NCBI RefSeq assembly: GCF_003432075.1
Contig: NZ_QWBU01000003.1
Span: forward strand, 248,001-312,000
Direction of reading: 5' to 3'
DNA from: Shinella sp. WSJ-2
GTDB taxonomy: Bacteria; Pseudomonadota; Alphaproteobacteria; Rhizobiales; Rhizobiaceae
DNA: 64,000 nucleotides
In this document: piece after piece, positions 2,224 through 6,363 of the stretch
How the letters are laid out: the number at the start of each line of letters is the position of its first letter
Position numbering within the stretch: the first letter of the stretch is position 1
Notes under the pieces: generated by a model
Databases searched by the model: none
Told to the model about the DNA's origin: nothing
What the model saw: only the letters and a program-made list of their open reading frames with translations
Position numbers and translations under genes: made by a program

Positions 2224-3390
2224 ATGGACGTTTCCATCATCGGCTGGGCGCATACACGCTTCGGCAAGCTTGAAGGCGAGACGGTCGAGAGCCTGATCGT
2301 GACCGTCGCGCGCGAGGCGATCGCCCATGCGGGGCTGTCGGCCGGCGATATCGACGAGATCGTGCTCGGCCATTTCAACGCCGGTTTCTCGCCGCAGGAT
2401 TTTACCGCAAGCCTCGTGCTGCAGGCCGATGACGCCTTGCGCTTCAAGCCGGCGACGCGGGTGGAAAATGCCTGCGCCACCGGTTCGGCCGCCGTGCACC
2501 AGGGCATCCGTGCTATCAGGGCCGGTGCCGCGCGCCATGTGCTGGTCGTCGGCATCGAGCAGATGACGAAAACGCCCGCCGCCGAGATCGGCGCGAACCT
2601 GTTGAAAGCCTCCTACCTTCCGGAAGACGGCGACACGCAGGCCGGTTTTGCCGGTGTCTTCGGGCGTATTGCGTGGGCCTATTTCCAGCGCCATGGCGAC
2701 CAATCCGATGCGCTCGCGGCCATCGCCGCCAAGAACCATAGGAACGGGGTCGCCAATCCCTATGCCCAGATGCAGAAGGATCTCGGCTTCGATTTCTGCC
2801 GCACCGAAAGCGAGAAAAACCCTTTCGTCGCCGGGCCGCTGAAACGCACCGATTGCTCGCTGGTCTCCGACGGCGCCGCCGCTCTCGTGCTCGCCTCATC
2901 CGATGCCGCCGCCAGCGCCCCGCGGGCCATAGGCTTCCGCGCGGCCGCCCATGTGCAGGATTTCCTGCCGATGTCGAAGCGCGATATCCTGATGTTCGAC
3001 GGCTGCGCGCAAGCCTGGCGGCAGGCGCTGGCGCAGGCCGGGGCGACGCTCCGTGATCTTTCCTTCGTCGAAACCCATGACTGCTTCACCATTGCCGAGA
3101 TGATCGAATACGAGGCGATGGGCCTTGCCAGGCCGGGCGAGGGTGGCCGTCTGGCGCTCTCGGGTGAAACTGCGAAAGACGGCCGCCTGCCCATCAATCC
3201 CTCTGGTGGCCTGAAATCGAAAGGGCATCCGATCGGCGCGACGGGGGTCTCCATGCATGTGCTGACGGCCATGCAGCTTGCCGGCGAGGCGGGTGGCATC
3301 CAGGTGCCGGGTGCCACGCTCGGCGGCCTGTTCAACATGGGCGGGGCGGCTGTCGCGAACTATGTCTCCATCCTCGAACGCAAGCACTGA
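2224..3390 (+). CDS. thiolase-family acetyl-CoA acetyltransferase (SCP-x type)
   Basis: A 388-residue thiolase-fold enzyme probably acting on acyl-CoA. The nucleophile region is VENACATGSAAVHQGIRA (Cys about residue 84), followed by VETHDCFTIAEM and the C-terminal block GLKSKGHPIGATG with the catalytic-base region. The HDCF and GHP motifs in place of the classic biosynthetic thiolase motifs place it in the non-specific lipid-transfer protein/thiolase group, often involved in side-chain or aromatic acid degradation. GGGAGGA six bases before the ATG at 2224 fixes the start; an upstream ATG at 2203 lacks a site. Substrate unknown. Confidence 0.85.
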   Translation: MDVSIIGWAHTRFGKLEGETVESLIVTVAREAIAHAGLSAGDIDEIVLGHFNAGFSPQDFTASLVLQADDALRFKPATRVENACATGSAAVHQGIRAIRAGAARHVLVVGIEQMTKTPAAEIGANLLKASYLPEDGDTQAGFAGVFGRIAWAYFQRHGDQSDALAAIAAKNHRNGVANPYAQMQKDLGFDFCRTESEKNPFVAGPLKRTDCSLVSDGAAALVLASSDAAASAPRAIGFRAAAHVQDFLPMSKRDILMFDGCAQAWRQALAQAGATLRDLSFVETHDCFTIAEMIEYEAMGLARPGEGGRLALSGETAKDGRLPINPSGGLKSKGHPIGATGVSMHVLTAMQLAGEAGGIQVPGATLGGLFNMGGAAVANYVSILERKH

Positions 3391-3429
3391 GCGGTTTGAC
3401 AGCCACGGCGTCTGGGCCTAGAAATTCGC

Positions 3430-3495
3430 CTGTGGGATGGGGATGGAGCTCCCCGATATCAGCCGTTGACCGGCTGATAGCTCGTGCCAGGCCGG
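3430..3495 (+). ncRNA. fluoride riboswitch (crcB RNA motif)
   Basis: The segment has the crcB-motif layout: GGGGATGGAGCTCCCC (3440-3454 region) forming the first stem with the invariant GATG, then a pairing block ATCAGCCG / CGGCTGAT (3458-3478), then AGCTCGTGCC, the counterpart of the GGCUCCUAC strand that pairs back in the pseudoknot. It lies directly upstream of crcB, the fluoride channel gene this RNA class controls. A rho-independent terminator follows at 3533-3553, implying fluoride-dependent antitermination. Assigned by eye; a covariance-model scan would settle the borders. Confidence 0.82.
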
Positions 3496-3532
3496 CCAGC
3501 GATGGCCGTCGACGGCGGGAGCGTGTTCTGCG

Positions 3533-3555
3533 ACCGCCCGTGGGCGGTTTTTTGT
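3533..3555 (+). terminator. riboswitch expression-platform terminator
   Basis: ACCGCCC GT GGGCGGT followed by TTTTTG is a compact stem with a U tract between the fluoride aptamer and crcB. It is the expected attenuator switched off when fluoride binds. Confidence 0.8.
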
Positions 3556-3593
3556 TGTCCGGATGTCGCAACAACGGACTGTGAGGCACGGAC

Positions 3594-3983
3594 ATGACCT
3601 ATCTGATCGTCTTTCTCGGTGCAGGCATCGGCGGTGCCGGCCGGCATGGGGTGAATGTGCTGGCGGCAAAGCTGTTCGGCACGCATTTTCCCGCCGGCAC
3701 TCTGATCATCAATGTGCTCGGCTGCCTGCTGATGGGCCTGATCGCCGGCGTCTTCGCCTTCAAGGTGAGTCTGCCGCAGGAGGCACGGCTGTTCCTGACC
3801 ACCGGCATACTTGGTGGCTTCACCACCTTCTCCGCCTTTTCGCTTGATGCGGCGCTGCTCTGGGAGCGTGGCGAGATGGGGCTGGCGGCGCTTTATGTCG
3901 GCGCATCGGTTTTTGTTTCACTGCTGGCGGTCGCCGCAGGACTGGCGCTGACGCGGGTCATGCTCGCGGGAGGTGCAGTGTGA
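3594..3983 (+). CDS. crcB: CrcB/Fluc fluoride channel
   Basis: Exports fluoride through the inner membrane as a dual-topology dimer. The 129-residue protein has four membrane helices and the family motifs GAGIGGAGRHGVN near the N-terminus, GTLIINVLGC (residues 34-43) with the conserved Asn, and the sodium-site stretch GGFTTFSAFS (residues 73-82). It is preceded by a fluoride riboswitch and terminator. The next gene starts on a GTG that overlaps its stop codon, so the two are translationally coupled. Confidence 0.96.
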   Translation: MTYLIVFLGAGIGGAGRHGVNVLAAKLFGTHFPAGTLIINVLGCLLMGLIAGVFAFKVSLPQEARLFLTTGILGGFTTFSAFSLDAALLWERGEMGLAALYVGASVFVSLLAVAAGLALTRVMLAGGAV

Positions 3984-4417
3984 AGACCTTTCTGACCTCC
4001 TGGCAAGTCTGGGCGCTTGGCTCGGCAATCTTCGCCGCGCTGACGGCGATCTTCGCCAAGATAGGCATATCGGAGGTCAATTCCGACTTCGCCACCTTCG
4101 TGCGAACCGTGGTCATCCTGCTGGCCATCGCCTTGATGCTTACGCTTGCCGGCAACTGGCAGGCACCCGGCACGGTGCCGGTGAAGAGCTGGATCTTCCT
4201 CATTCTCTCGGGTCTGGCGACCGGCGCCTCCTGGCTCTGCTATTTCCGCGCGCTGCAGATCGGCAAGGCCGCGCAGGTCGCTCCGGTCGACAAGCTCTCC
4301 GTCGTGCTCGTCGCCGTCTTCGCCGTGCTTTTCCTTAGCGAGCAGCTTTCGACAACGCACTGGATCGCGGTTGCCATGATCGGCGGCGGCGCGCTGCTGC
4401 TTGCCTTGCCCATATGA
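3980..4417 (+). CDS. half-size EamA-family transporter
   Basis: A 145-residue protein with five hydrophobic segments, matching one EamA repeat (half of a ten-helix DMT transporter), with ALTAIFAKIGISEVNS at the N-terminus and LSTTHWIAVAMIGGGALLLALPI at the C-terminus. Half-size members must pair to work. The GTG start overlaps the crcB stop (GTGA), and GGGAGGTGCA upstream supplies a ribosome site, so expression should follow the fluoride riboswitch. Substrate unknown; the context suggests a role in fluoride stress, or passive co-transcription. Confidence 0.85.
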   Translation: MKTFLTSWQVWALGSAIFAALTAIFAKIGISEVNSDFATFVRTVVILLAIALMLTLAGNWQAPGTVPVKSWIFLILSGLATGASWLCYFRALQIGKAAQVAPVDKLSVVLVAVFAVLFLSEQLSTTHWIAVAMIGGGALLLALPI

Positions 4418-4539
4418 GGGGTTTCTTTTTCAACTCCTTGTAGTCGTTGCAGTTTCATCGAATTGTCACACTACGGAAACGGATTTTTCAGGGATCGGAA
4501 GAGAGACTTCGCGGCAGTGTAAAAGCCCCGGAGCGTCCC

Positions 4540-6363
4540 ATGTCCGCCGCCGAACTGCTCGCCCTTCGTCGCTTCGGCGATGGTGAGATCGTCACGCTCG
4601 CCAAGCTGGTTATCGAAACGGCGTTCCAGCCGATCGTCGAGGCCGCCACCGGTGCCGTCTTCGGCTACGAGTCGCTGATGCGCGGTTTCGACCGGCTGGG
4701 CTTCCGCTCGCCGCTCGATCTCCTCGACCGGGCGCACGAGGCCGGCCAGCTTCTGGCGCTCGAGCACATGGTCAACAGTCGGGCGATCGCCGCTTTCGCG
4801 GCGCTGCCGGATTTCCGCTCGCGCACGCTGTTCGTCAATCTCGATTCCCGACTGGTGGCCGAGGGCTCTGACCTCGTCGAGCGCCTGGCCGGCCATCTCA
4901 GCCGCGCCGGCATCCCGGCCTCGTCGATCTGCTTCGAGATTTCCGAGCGGTTTAACAATGATCAACTGCCGGATTTCGCCATGCTGGTGCGCAAGCTGCG
5001 GCTCGCCGGCTTCAAGCTCGCCATCGACGATTTCGGCGTCGGGCACAACGGCCTGAAGCTGCTCTGCGACCATCCGGTTGATTATCTCAAGATCGACCGC
5101 CACTTCATTTCCGGCATGGAAAGCGATGCGCGAAAGCGCCATCTCGTGCGCAACACGGTCAATGCAGCCCATGTTCTCGGCATTCGCGTCATTGCGGAAG
5201 GCGTGGAGAGCGAGGCGGAGTTCATCGCCTGCCGAGAGGCGGGCTGCGATCTCGTGCAAGGCTGGTTTGTCTCGCACCCCGTCACGGATTTTTCGGCGCT
5301 GAGCCCCGTCTATGCGCAGGTGGCGCGGGCGGGCGGCACGCGCCGCTCTTCGCGCACGCTGGACAGTATCCTCATCCGCCGCGAGATCGAGCAGGTCGCG
5401 GTGCTCCGGGAAAACGAGAGCCTGGAATCGGTCTTCGAATTCTTCCGCCGCGATCCCAAGCGCACCTTCTTCCCGGTGCTGAACGCCAATGACGAGCCGC
5501 GTGGCATCCTCCACGAATATCACGTCAAGGAGTTGAGCTATCACCCGTTCGGCCGCGACCTCTTGAAGAACAGGCTATACCAGAAGAGCCTGTCGCATTT
5601 CGTCACCATGGCGCCGATTGCCGATCTCGATACGCCGGCCGAACAGCTGCTCGATGTCTTCACCGGCATGGGCGGCAATGAATGCGTGATCCTCACCGAG
5701 AACCTGCGCTATGCCGGCATCCTCTCGGCCTCGTCGCTCTTGAAGATCATCAACGAGAAGCGGCTGAAGACGGCGGAGGACCAGAACCCGCTGACCGGCC
5801 TGCCGGGCAACCGCTCGATCCGCGATTACCTGCAGGACAAGGCGCTCGACGGCGACCAGCTGCGCTGCCTGTGCTACTTCGATTTCGACAATTTCAAGCC
5901 GTTCAACGATCACTACGGCTTCCACAAGGGCGATCTCGCGCTGTCGCTCTTCGCCTCGCTGCTGCGGCGCGAATTCGTCGGCGAGGATGTCTTCGTCGGC
6001 CATGTCGGCGGGGATGACTTTTTTGCCGGCGTTTCCGGTCGGCCGGTGGAGGTCGTGCAGGATATCCTGGAACGGCTGCTTGCCGATTTCGCCCGCGAGG
6101 TGCGCGCGCTCTATTCGCCGGAGGATCGGCTGGCCGGGGAAATCCGTGGCCGCGACCGGGCGGGCCATCAGACGAAATTTCCGCTGATGCGCTGTTCGGC
6201 CGTCGTGCTGGTGGTGCCGGAAGGTGAGGTGATCGGCGAGGCGGGGCAGATCAGCAGCCGAATCGCCGCCCTGAAGGCGGATGCCAAGGAGAGCGACGGG
6301 GGGCTCGTGCTCTCCTCGGTCTCGGGCGACATGCAGCCTGCGGCAGCGGCACGTCGTTCATAA
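4540..6363 (+). CDS. EAL-CBS-GGDEF c-di-GMP protein
   Basis: Probable c-di-GMP phosphodiesterase with a degenerate cyclase domain. EAL domain at about residues 20-250 keeps the catalytic set: E44 (ESL), N100, E133, D163-D164 (IDDFGVG), K184, E220 (AEGVE) and Q240. A CBS pair follows at about 285-415 and a GGDEF domain at 430-600, where the signature reads GGDDF (490-494). No signal peptide or membrane segment is seen, so it is cytosolic and the CBS pair probably senses nucleotides. The ATG at 4540 (GGAG six bases upstream) is preferred to a TTG 93 bases earlier, giving 607 residues. Confidence 0.88.
   Translation: MSAAELLALRRFGDGEIVTLAKLVIETAFQPIVEAATGAVFGYESLMRGFDRLGFRSPLDLLDRAHEAGQLLALEHMVNSRAIAAFAALPDFRSRTLFVNLDSRLVAEGSDLVERLAGHLSRAGIPASSICFEISERFNNDQLPDFAMLVRKLRLAGFKLAIDDFGVGHNGLKLLCDHPVDYLKIDRHFISGMESDARKRHLVRNTVNAAHVLGIRVIAEGVESEAEFIACREAGCDLVQGWFVSHPVTDFSALSPVYAQVARAGGTRRSSRTLDSILIRREIEQVAVLRENESLESVFEFFRRDPKRTFFPVLNANDEPRGILHEYHVKELSYHPFGRDLLKNRLYQKSLSHFVTMAPIADLDTPAEQLLDVFTGMGGNECVILTENLRYAGILSASSLLKIINEKRLKTAEDQNPLTGLPGNRSIRDYLQDKALDGDQLRCLCYFDFDNFKPFNDHYGFHKGDLALSLFASLLRREFVGEDVFVGHVGGDDFFAGVSGRPVEVVQDILERLLADFAREVRALYSPEDRLAGEIRGRDRAGHQTKFPLMRCSAVVLVVPEGEVIGEAGQISSRIAALKADAKESDGGLVLSSVSGDMQPAAAARRS

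Follow-up and report, generated by a model that had tools for sequence, protein, structure and literature searches.

The crcB locus of Shinella sp. WSJ-2 raises the question of whether a small membrane protein encoded directly behind a fluoride channel belongs to the fluoride response, and whether the RNA leader preceding both genes still senses fluoride. The window, that is, the whole stretch of 64,000 nucleotides analysed here, comes from genome G000 (5.14 Mb, 29 contigs); Shinella sumterensis and S. yambaruensis are among its relatives within the genus. In this soil bacterium, a small operon encodes a protein for fluoride export and a membrane transporter of half size. The first-pass annotation had described the aptamer, terminator and crcB as a textbook unit, to which the gene of a five-helix EamA half-transporter is coupled, and had suggested co-regulation of both genes by fluoride.

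Layout of the crcB-eamA locus

The locus comprises the following features, in 5' to 3' order:

End at 3390: thiolase gene, the 5' neighbour of the leader
3396..3424, + strand: sigma-70-like promoter, exact match to the pattern TTGACA-N17-TAGAAA, immediately 5' of the aptamer
3430..3493, + strand: degenerate fluoride riboswitch aptamer (RF01734), 29.1 bits
3439..3454, + strand: aptamer helix P1 (3439-3442 with 3451-3454), whose loop holds the pseudoknot 5' strand (3445-3450)
3457..3479, + strand: perfect 9-bp hairpin TATCAGCCG / CGGCTGATA (3457-3465 with 3471-3479)
3479..3484, + strand: pseudoknot 3' strand, its outer pair broken by a private C to G change at 3484
3480..3522, + strand: switching stem (anti-antiterminator), 3480-3488 with GGCGGGAGC at 3514-3522
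3514..3538, + strand: proposed antiterminator, GGCGG (3514-3518) with CCGCC (3534-3538)
3532..3553, + strand: intrinsic terminator, stem 3532-3549 of seven pairs followed by a T run
3594..3983, + strand: crcB (fluc), fluoride channel, 129 aa (PF02537, NF010794)
3980..4417, + strand: eamA, half-size EamA (DMT) transporter, 145 aa, GTG start (PF00892)
Downstream of eamA: EAL-GGDEF gene

The CrcB protein scores 92.5 bits against PF02537 (cut-off 32.9) and 160 against NF010794 (cut-off 125), and it is the only CrcB match in G000. The start of eamA overlaps the crcB stop by 4 nt (GTGA). The promoter pattern TTGACA-N17-TAGAAA has a chance expectation of 0.02 in the window, and in 16/16 aptamer-bearing leaders examined, a TTGACA element and, at a spacing of 17-18 nt, a TA(A/G)(A/G)(A/T/G)A box lie 5' of the aptamer. 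A simple scan with a stricter consensus returned no promoters; it missed that at 3396-3424, so its failure to show a promoter for eamA inside crcB is weak evidence. Since a scan for terminator-type sites gave a count near the shuffle level (three found versus 1.9 in shuffles), the case for the terminator rests on conservation, its core pairs being present (6/6) in all 16 leaders. The terminator, crcB and the overlapping eamA reported in the first pass are all in place.

Farther downstream, TTTCATCGAATTGTCAC at 4453-4469, 5' of the EAL-GGDEF gene, resembles what we take to be a rhizobial PhoB box, and a stretch similar to it by eye occupies the same place in 17/19 aligned rows, L004 and L008 being the exceptions. 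In L008, a weak match to the Brucella sRNA BASRCI27 (L008:1928-2077, 32.5 bits against a gathering score of 59.8) lies just 3' of eamA, where the usual downstream sequence is missing.

A degenerate aptamer behind a conserved promoter-like motif

A covariance scan, as proposed in the first pass, of a stretch of 1,301 bases located RF01734 at 3430-3493 with an E of 9.9e-6 and a score of 29.1 bits, below the gathering score of 34 bits; no RNA family reached its gathering score anywhere in the window. Of 20 EamA-gene loci scanned, 16 carried an RF01734 match, and the 15 besides the window, 14 of them from the same genus code and one (L019) from G031, scored 48.0-54.4 bits and passed the gathering score. 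The description as a textbook unit is not confirmed for this strain, whose aptamer also carries four private substitutions. The scan gave no match in L002, L009, L011 and L020; for L020, the aptamer lies farther upstream, before a CLC gene, as seen in the longer locus L177.

We also built an RNA model (R2) from 34 aptamers, the window aptamer excluded, which superseded a model whose pseudoknot strands had been chosen by RNAalifold (R1). R2 gave 49.3 bits for the window versus 68.7 for L092, and 65.1 and 69.7 for L091 and L094, both of which are among its 34 aptamers. A chance match was ruled out, since the same position holds strong aptamers in 15 relatives, behind the same type of promoter.

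crcB-eamA pairs in the genus

Among the 21 genus genomes searched, eamA was present in 18: 14 with a strong aptamer, one (this strain) with the degenerate copy, and three (L171-L173) with none detected by an R2 scan of 10-12 kb around the crcB-eamA pair. The remaining 3/21 genomes keep crcB and lack eamA. These three pairs are those of L002, L009 and L011. L002 encodes a CrcB protein identical to that of the window (DNA 91.7% identical) with unrelated sequence upstream of crcB; in the other two, the frame immediately 5' of crcB is a DUF308 gene judging by sequence. The 4-nt overlap of crcB and eamA is present in 19/19 orthologous pairs (18 from the genus plus G031). Between the window and 17 relatives, L008 being left out of the table, dN/dS amounts to 0.07-0.26 for eamA and 0.01-0.26 for crcB; by these ratios, eamA is under purifying selection, as is crcB.

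Proposed switching in the leaders of the genus

The switching pathway was deduced from 16 leaders, two of them identical. Helix P1 has 4/4 pairs in all 16 by pairing count. The pseudoknot 3' strand (3479-3484) overlaps the nine-pair switching stem (3480-3488 with 3514-3522), which is complete in 14 relatives and has 8/9 pairs both in the window and, through one mismatch, in L017; in L005 and L014, a U-A pair of this stem is now G-C. The GGCGG/CCGCC antiterminator shows 5/5 pairs in 15/16 leaders and 4/5 in L005, and because its columns hardly vary, it is proposed without covariation proof.

The OFF state, consisting of switching stem and terminator, has an energetic advantage of 6.0 to 14.5 kcal/mol in 14/15 relatives and of 6.4 kcal/mol in the window, the preference being reversed by 1.9 kcal/mol in L017. 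The switching hairpin itself reaches -26.8 kcal/mol in the window versus -26.4 to -33.3 kcal/mol in the 15 relatives. When the pseudoknot strands were blocked, giving a docked-like state, antiterminator and terminator differed by no more than 5.5 kcal/mol, and in 7/15 relatives it was the antiterminator that had the lower stability; at such near-equal energies, kinetics or fluoride must decide.

We infer that the genus leader is an ON switch that acts by antitermination and contains an additional switching hairpin. In the ancestral form, docking in the presence of fluoride would hold the pseudoknot 3' strand, leaving GGCGG free to mask the terminator and switching both genes on, and without fluoride the pseudoknot 3' strand would pair with GGCGGGAGC, allowing the terminator to form.

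A perfect hairpin private to this strain

The window aptamer carries four private substitutions, at 3457, 3459, 3461 and 3484. Over aptamer columns 3-60, with the P3 loop left out, private letters number four in the window, two in L005, one in L017 and none in the other 13 rows, although the leaders of L006 and L008 are identical and several others are near copies, so that private letters cannot appear in those. The remaining leader has no private letter in the window, versus seven in L005 and eight in L019. The other aptamers of the order, 34 in number, all have A at 3459 (A to T in the window), C at 3484 (C to G) and either C or T at 3461 (A in the window), whereas 3457 is a variable position.

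The changes at 3457, 3459 and 3461 coincide precisely with the mismatches in an imperfect repeat, CAACYGCCG/CGGCTGATA, found in nearly all relatives (L017 has GAACTGCCG). As a result, the hairpin arm has 9/9 pairs in the window versus 6/9 in 15 relatives, which form only a 4-bp P3, and the computed energy of the P3 hairpin is -11.8 kcal/mol versus -5.6 to -7.0 kcal/mol. Template switching at quasipalindromes, the subject of an E. coli study (PMC7202029), is described as yielding such corrections and perfect RNA hairpins (PMC8794818). We propose that one event of this kind replaced the three bases in J1/3-P3, and that this single copying error probably disabled the RNA switch.

Alternatively, the four changes could be separate substitutions accumulated under relaxed selection rather than a template switch plus one substitution. 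The fourth change does lie outside the palindrome, 3457 varies anyway, and the three other genus pairs in which no aptamer was found suggest that selection may be relaxed. Against this stand the three changes that fall precisely on the three mismatches and all match the other arm, and a simulation, conceived only after the pattern had been noticed, in which four random substitutions produced a perfect arm in 82 of 2,000,000 trials. We consider separate substitutions quite improbable and favour the template switch.

The consequences for folding can be followed with the numbering in which the pseudoknot comprises nucleotides 12-17 and 42-47 (PMC10687018), so that window positions 3475-3479 correspond to aptamer nucleotides 38-42. 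The pair A40-U48 is described as the main linchpin locking the fluoride-bound state (PMC8752731). The letters of A40 and U48 are both present in the window, and nucleotides 38-41 and 48 are as usual; A40 and U41 are nevertheless predicted to be paired in the hairpin, the unpaired probability of A40 being 0.00 in the window versus 0.74-1.00 in 15 relatives according to an energy model that takes no account of the pseudoknot or magnesium. In addition, the change at 3484 removes the outer pseudoknot pair (5/6 pairs in the window versus 6/6 in 15 relatives) and one pair of the switching stem. P1, the terminator and the inner leader hairpin are intact.

A competing explanation is that the aptamer is a divergent working variant that still senses fluoride, its extended P3 opening when docked. 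It is still recognised by both RNA models, P1 and the expression platform are conserved, total divergence is low, and the usual letters at nucleotides 38-41 and 48 are retained. Yet three of the four changes (3459, 3461, 3484) hit columns that are invariant or C/T throughout the order, A40 and U41 are predicted to be paired, and the pseudoknot lacks its outer pair. This working variant is in our judgement unlikely. Moreover, four changes in 64 nt are far below the dS of 0.41-0.42 between the window and L003, so that any loss would be recent or partial.

The aptamer of the window is predicted to misfold, and fluoride sensing in this strain is probably lost or much reduced. Since the aptamer is predicted to misfold, fluoride co-regulation is not supported for this strain, while fluoride control of the operon looks ancestral. 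The earlier proposal that fluoride co-regulates eamA consequently holds in part: it agrees with the relatives under fluoride riboswitches, and it does not extend to this strain or to the 3/18 eamA-bearing genus genomes that keep the pair and in which no aptamer was found.

EamA genes and fluoride riboswitches in Hyphomicrobiales

A survey of 297 genomes of the order identified at least 71 EamA places (69 genomes) and aptamers in at least 34 genomes, and a survey of 378 genomes of the phylum at least 36 EamA places; these are lower bounds, as searches of more than 40 genomes scored part of the first-look candidates and used stricter RNA filters. Within the order, 6/71 EamA places follow an RF01734 match of the same strand at a distance of no more than 1 kb; they belong to six genomes with five family codes (G000, G040, G070, G106, G112 and G279). 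Within the phylum, 3/36 places do so (G000, G070 and G603). Outside the genome of the window, five cases were seen versus 0.005 expected within 3 kb in the 12 non-window genomes having both features; as the loci of G070 and G112 are near-identical and the two genomes have one genus code in common, it is safer to count four independent cases (P about 3e-11). Among the matches listed, a clear aptamer accompanies 7 of the best 80 named loci, in six of them as an upstream element of the same strand and in L153 divergently, the weak matches of L163 and L155 (E 0.17 and 0.39) being left out.

The search for crcB-EamA pairs in other rhizobia, suggested in the first pass, showed EamA relatives under fluoride riboswitches in several families and gene orders. 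The order aptamer-crcB-eamA occurs in the genus, G031, L178 and L242-L244; aptamer-CLC-crcB-eamA in L095, L100 and L177, the EamA protein of L100 being the same as that of L177; aptamer-CLC-eamA in L104 (Ancylobacter); and aptamer-eamA-usp-enolase-crcB-mutS in L241, where eamA is the first gene. The CLC genes of L095, L100, L104 and L177 carry GNNLI, GREGT and GEVTP, described as CLC(F) signatures (PMC11139923). A backup fluoride exporter was sought in G000 and not found: beside its one CrcB, the lone CLC has GHGIP and GAEGP, not the CLC(F) motifs.

Several further arrangements were observed. In L104:3054-4904 and L177:3986-5827, CLC(F) is fused to a C-terminal DUF190 domain, and in L180 the two are separate adjoining genes. 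L241 and L245, two contigs of G279, each have a fluoride aptamer in a leader similar to that of the other contig; a usp-like gene (in L245 by sequence likeness only) and, farther on, crcB lie behind either aptamer, and eamA is the first gene in one of the two but not in the other. In L153 (Bradyrhizobium australiense; region L153:2673-5426), an aptamer on the minus strand (4858-4916) precedes two crcB genes and lies head to head with eamA; a second aptamer is at 2673-2735. Seven fluoride aptamers fall within 20 kb in G186:C22:157565-176872, out of eight in that genome, perhaps marking a fluoride or organofluorine island.

The fluoride-linked EamA proteins as a single clade were rejected (p-AU 0.0012) in a test on 86/129 rows, from which 14 of the 19 belonging to the genus and G031, together with 29 named ones that were near-duplicates or sat on long branches, had been taken out by hand. 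In the larger tree, which has 143 columns for 129 rows and many open forks, the well-supported branches alone force just one label change, not polyphyly. The label 'fluoride' included L021, whose crcB match has an internal stop, and L153, divergent to a fluoride operon, was labelled 'other'; three aptamer-less genus pairs were labelled 'fluoride' in the larger tree only.

Most relatives of EamA do not reside in fluoride loci. A CobN cluster is found in 10 of the best 80 loci among the matches listed, with a small gene behind CobN in nine; the half-size eamA behind CobN-CobO was profiled by family in L098 and L181, and suggests a different role at such loci, one that may concern cobalamin or cobalt. 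The group of CobN-CobO-eamA loci includes records from Brucella, Ochrobactrum and Bartonella. Other eamA genes accompany SBP_bac_11 binding proteins (L101, L127 and L164) or DUF1178 (L138). Given these varied contexts, EamA resembles a transporter of general use that was recruited, and the gene neighbourhood does not reveal its substrate. The first-pass suggestion that it might move a metabolite required under fluoride stress is speculative.

Such a spread of contexts (CobN-CobO, SBP_bac_11, DUF1178 and others) is what would be seen if EamA were a mere passenger behind crcB or CLC(F), with no role in fluoride stress, and its absence from 3/21 genus genomes that keep crcB points the same way. 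A passenger is harder to reconcile with recurrence under five family codes and in four different gene orders, in one of which eamA is the first gene directly behind the aptamer, with proteins that are not one clade, and with the 4-nt coupling in 19/19 pairs under purifying selection. We rate the passenger explanation as unlikely. In independent lineages, genes of this family follow a fluoride riboswitch, and from this recurrent link in varied gene orders we conclude that eamA probably does belong to the fluoride regulon of Hyphomicrobiales. Judging by gene context, a role of eamA in fluoride stress is likely.

A half-size DMT transporter

The EamA protein matches PF00892 with 79.2 bits (cut-off 28.2) over residues 7-142, covering profile positions 2-134 of 135. 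An AlphaFold2 model from 88 rows (pLDDT 92.5), which replaced an earlier model from 15 rows (pLDDT 58.9), predicts five membrane helices, the fourth with a one-residue break, in support of the five-helix half-transporter annotated in the first pass. The model covers one half of the DMT fold, matching LicB (7paf; Z 10.6), the triose-phosphate translocator (Z 9.2) and 5i20 (Z 8.2) in VIA-align, values that are only moderate for a helical protein. Foldseek returned no match to the model at E < 0.001, so that the DMT assignment rests on the Pfam and VIA-align results. We take 5i20 to be YddG. A magnesium transporter was considered and rejected: matches of the EamA-set profile to NIPA2 were weak (best E 0.0029), superfamily-level and uninformative as to substrate.

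Ten-helix DMT members are fused repeats; the window EamA shares their fold (PF00892; 5i20, LicB 7paf) and differs from them in being a single repeat of 145 aa that is modelled as one five-helix half. It agrees in length and helix number with five-helix single-domain DMT proteins, presumably the BAT family (TCDB 2.A.7.2). As a single repeat, it should pair with its own copy or a partner, and it probably functions as a homodimer. Its loops carry two K/R on each side, and this small charge bias makes antiparallel dimers possible. In being a small subunit with little charge bias, it resembles the SMR family and Fluc/CrcB, which form dual-topology dimers; we assume that its fold differs from that of Fluc and that it has one helix more than SMR.

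A more far-reaching reading would make EamA a third fluoride-response membrane protein beside Fluc and CLC(F), an antiparallel homodimer recruited repeatedly to riboswitch operons of Hyphomicrobiales, together with the notion that a single quasipalindrome template switch can disable riboswitches in nature. The cargo of EamA would be a solute that becomes harmful or scarce under fluoride, such as a metabolite accumulating ahead of blocked enolase, or a divalent cation, either free or complexed with fluoride. As a whole, this joint reading is speculative, and we hold it to be rather doubtful.

Model and comparison with known systems

The reading that we prefer, with a probability of roughly 0.65, is that of a fluoride-stress operon with an ancestral antitermination riboswitch whose fluoride response has been lost or strongly reduced in this strain by a template switch and a substitution. 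One promoter would serve the riboswitch, the fluoride exporter gene crcB and the gene of the half-size EamA, coupled to crcB in translation. In this strain, the 9-bp hairpin would bury nucleotides 38-42, the linchpin base A40 included, and the further C to G change would have weakened both pseudoknot and switching stem; with these two lesions, the fluoride response is predicted to be lost or strongly reduced, and crcB-eamA would be set at a fixed low or leaky level.

To our knowledge, half-size DMT transporters mostly have no assigned function, and the repeated association of one of them with a riboswitch whose ligand is known offers a direct handle on that transporter. The window further provides a natural, nearly single-event aptamer lesion beside intact orthologues, which lets one test the control of fluoride sensing by P3 length and the linchpin, as well as template switching as a force in riboswitch evolution. 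The pieces are of known kinds; what is new is the combination of EamA with fluoride riboswitches and the natural lesion. Within the open-licence literature searched, no paper linking the two was found, and the term EamA is absent from the main text of a fluoride-resistance review (PMC11139923), of the crcB motif paper (PMC2864571) and of the E. cloacae operon paper (PMC5533749); one paper names EamA in connection with ykkC subtype 2d RNAs.

Compared with the fluoride riboswitch family (RF01734), the leader of the window shares P1, P3, the pseudoknot, the conserved UGAU, a downstream terminator and crcB as target, whereas its copy scores below the cut-off, has an extended P3 and lacks one pseudoknot pair. 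In the fluoride switch of B. cereus, the terminator is described as directly disrupting pseudoknot pairs (PMC11077080); in contrast, the genus platform seems to use a separate switching stem. At the level of the operon, the closest tested counterpart in our comparison is that of E. cloacae FRM, ppaC-uspA-eno-gpmA-crcB-orf5249 (PMC5533749), which is likewise led by a riboswitch and contains crcB, and with which L241 shares usp, enolase and crcB. The window differs from the FRM operon, as that operon is listed there, in having an EamA gene.
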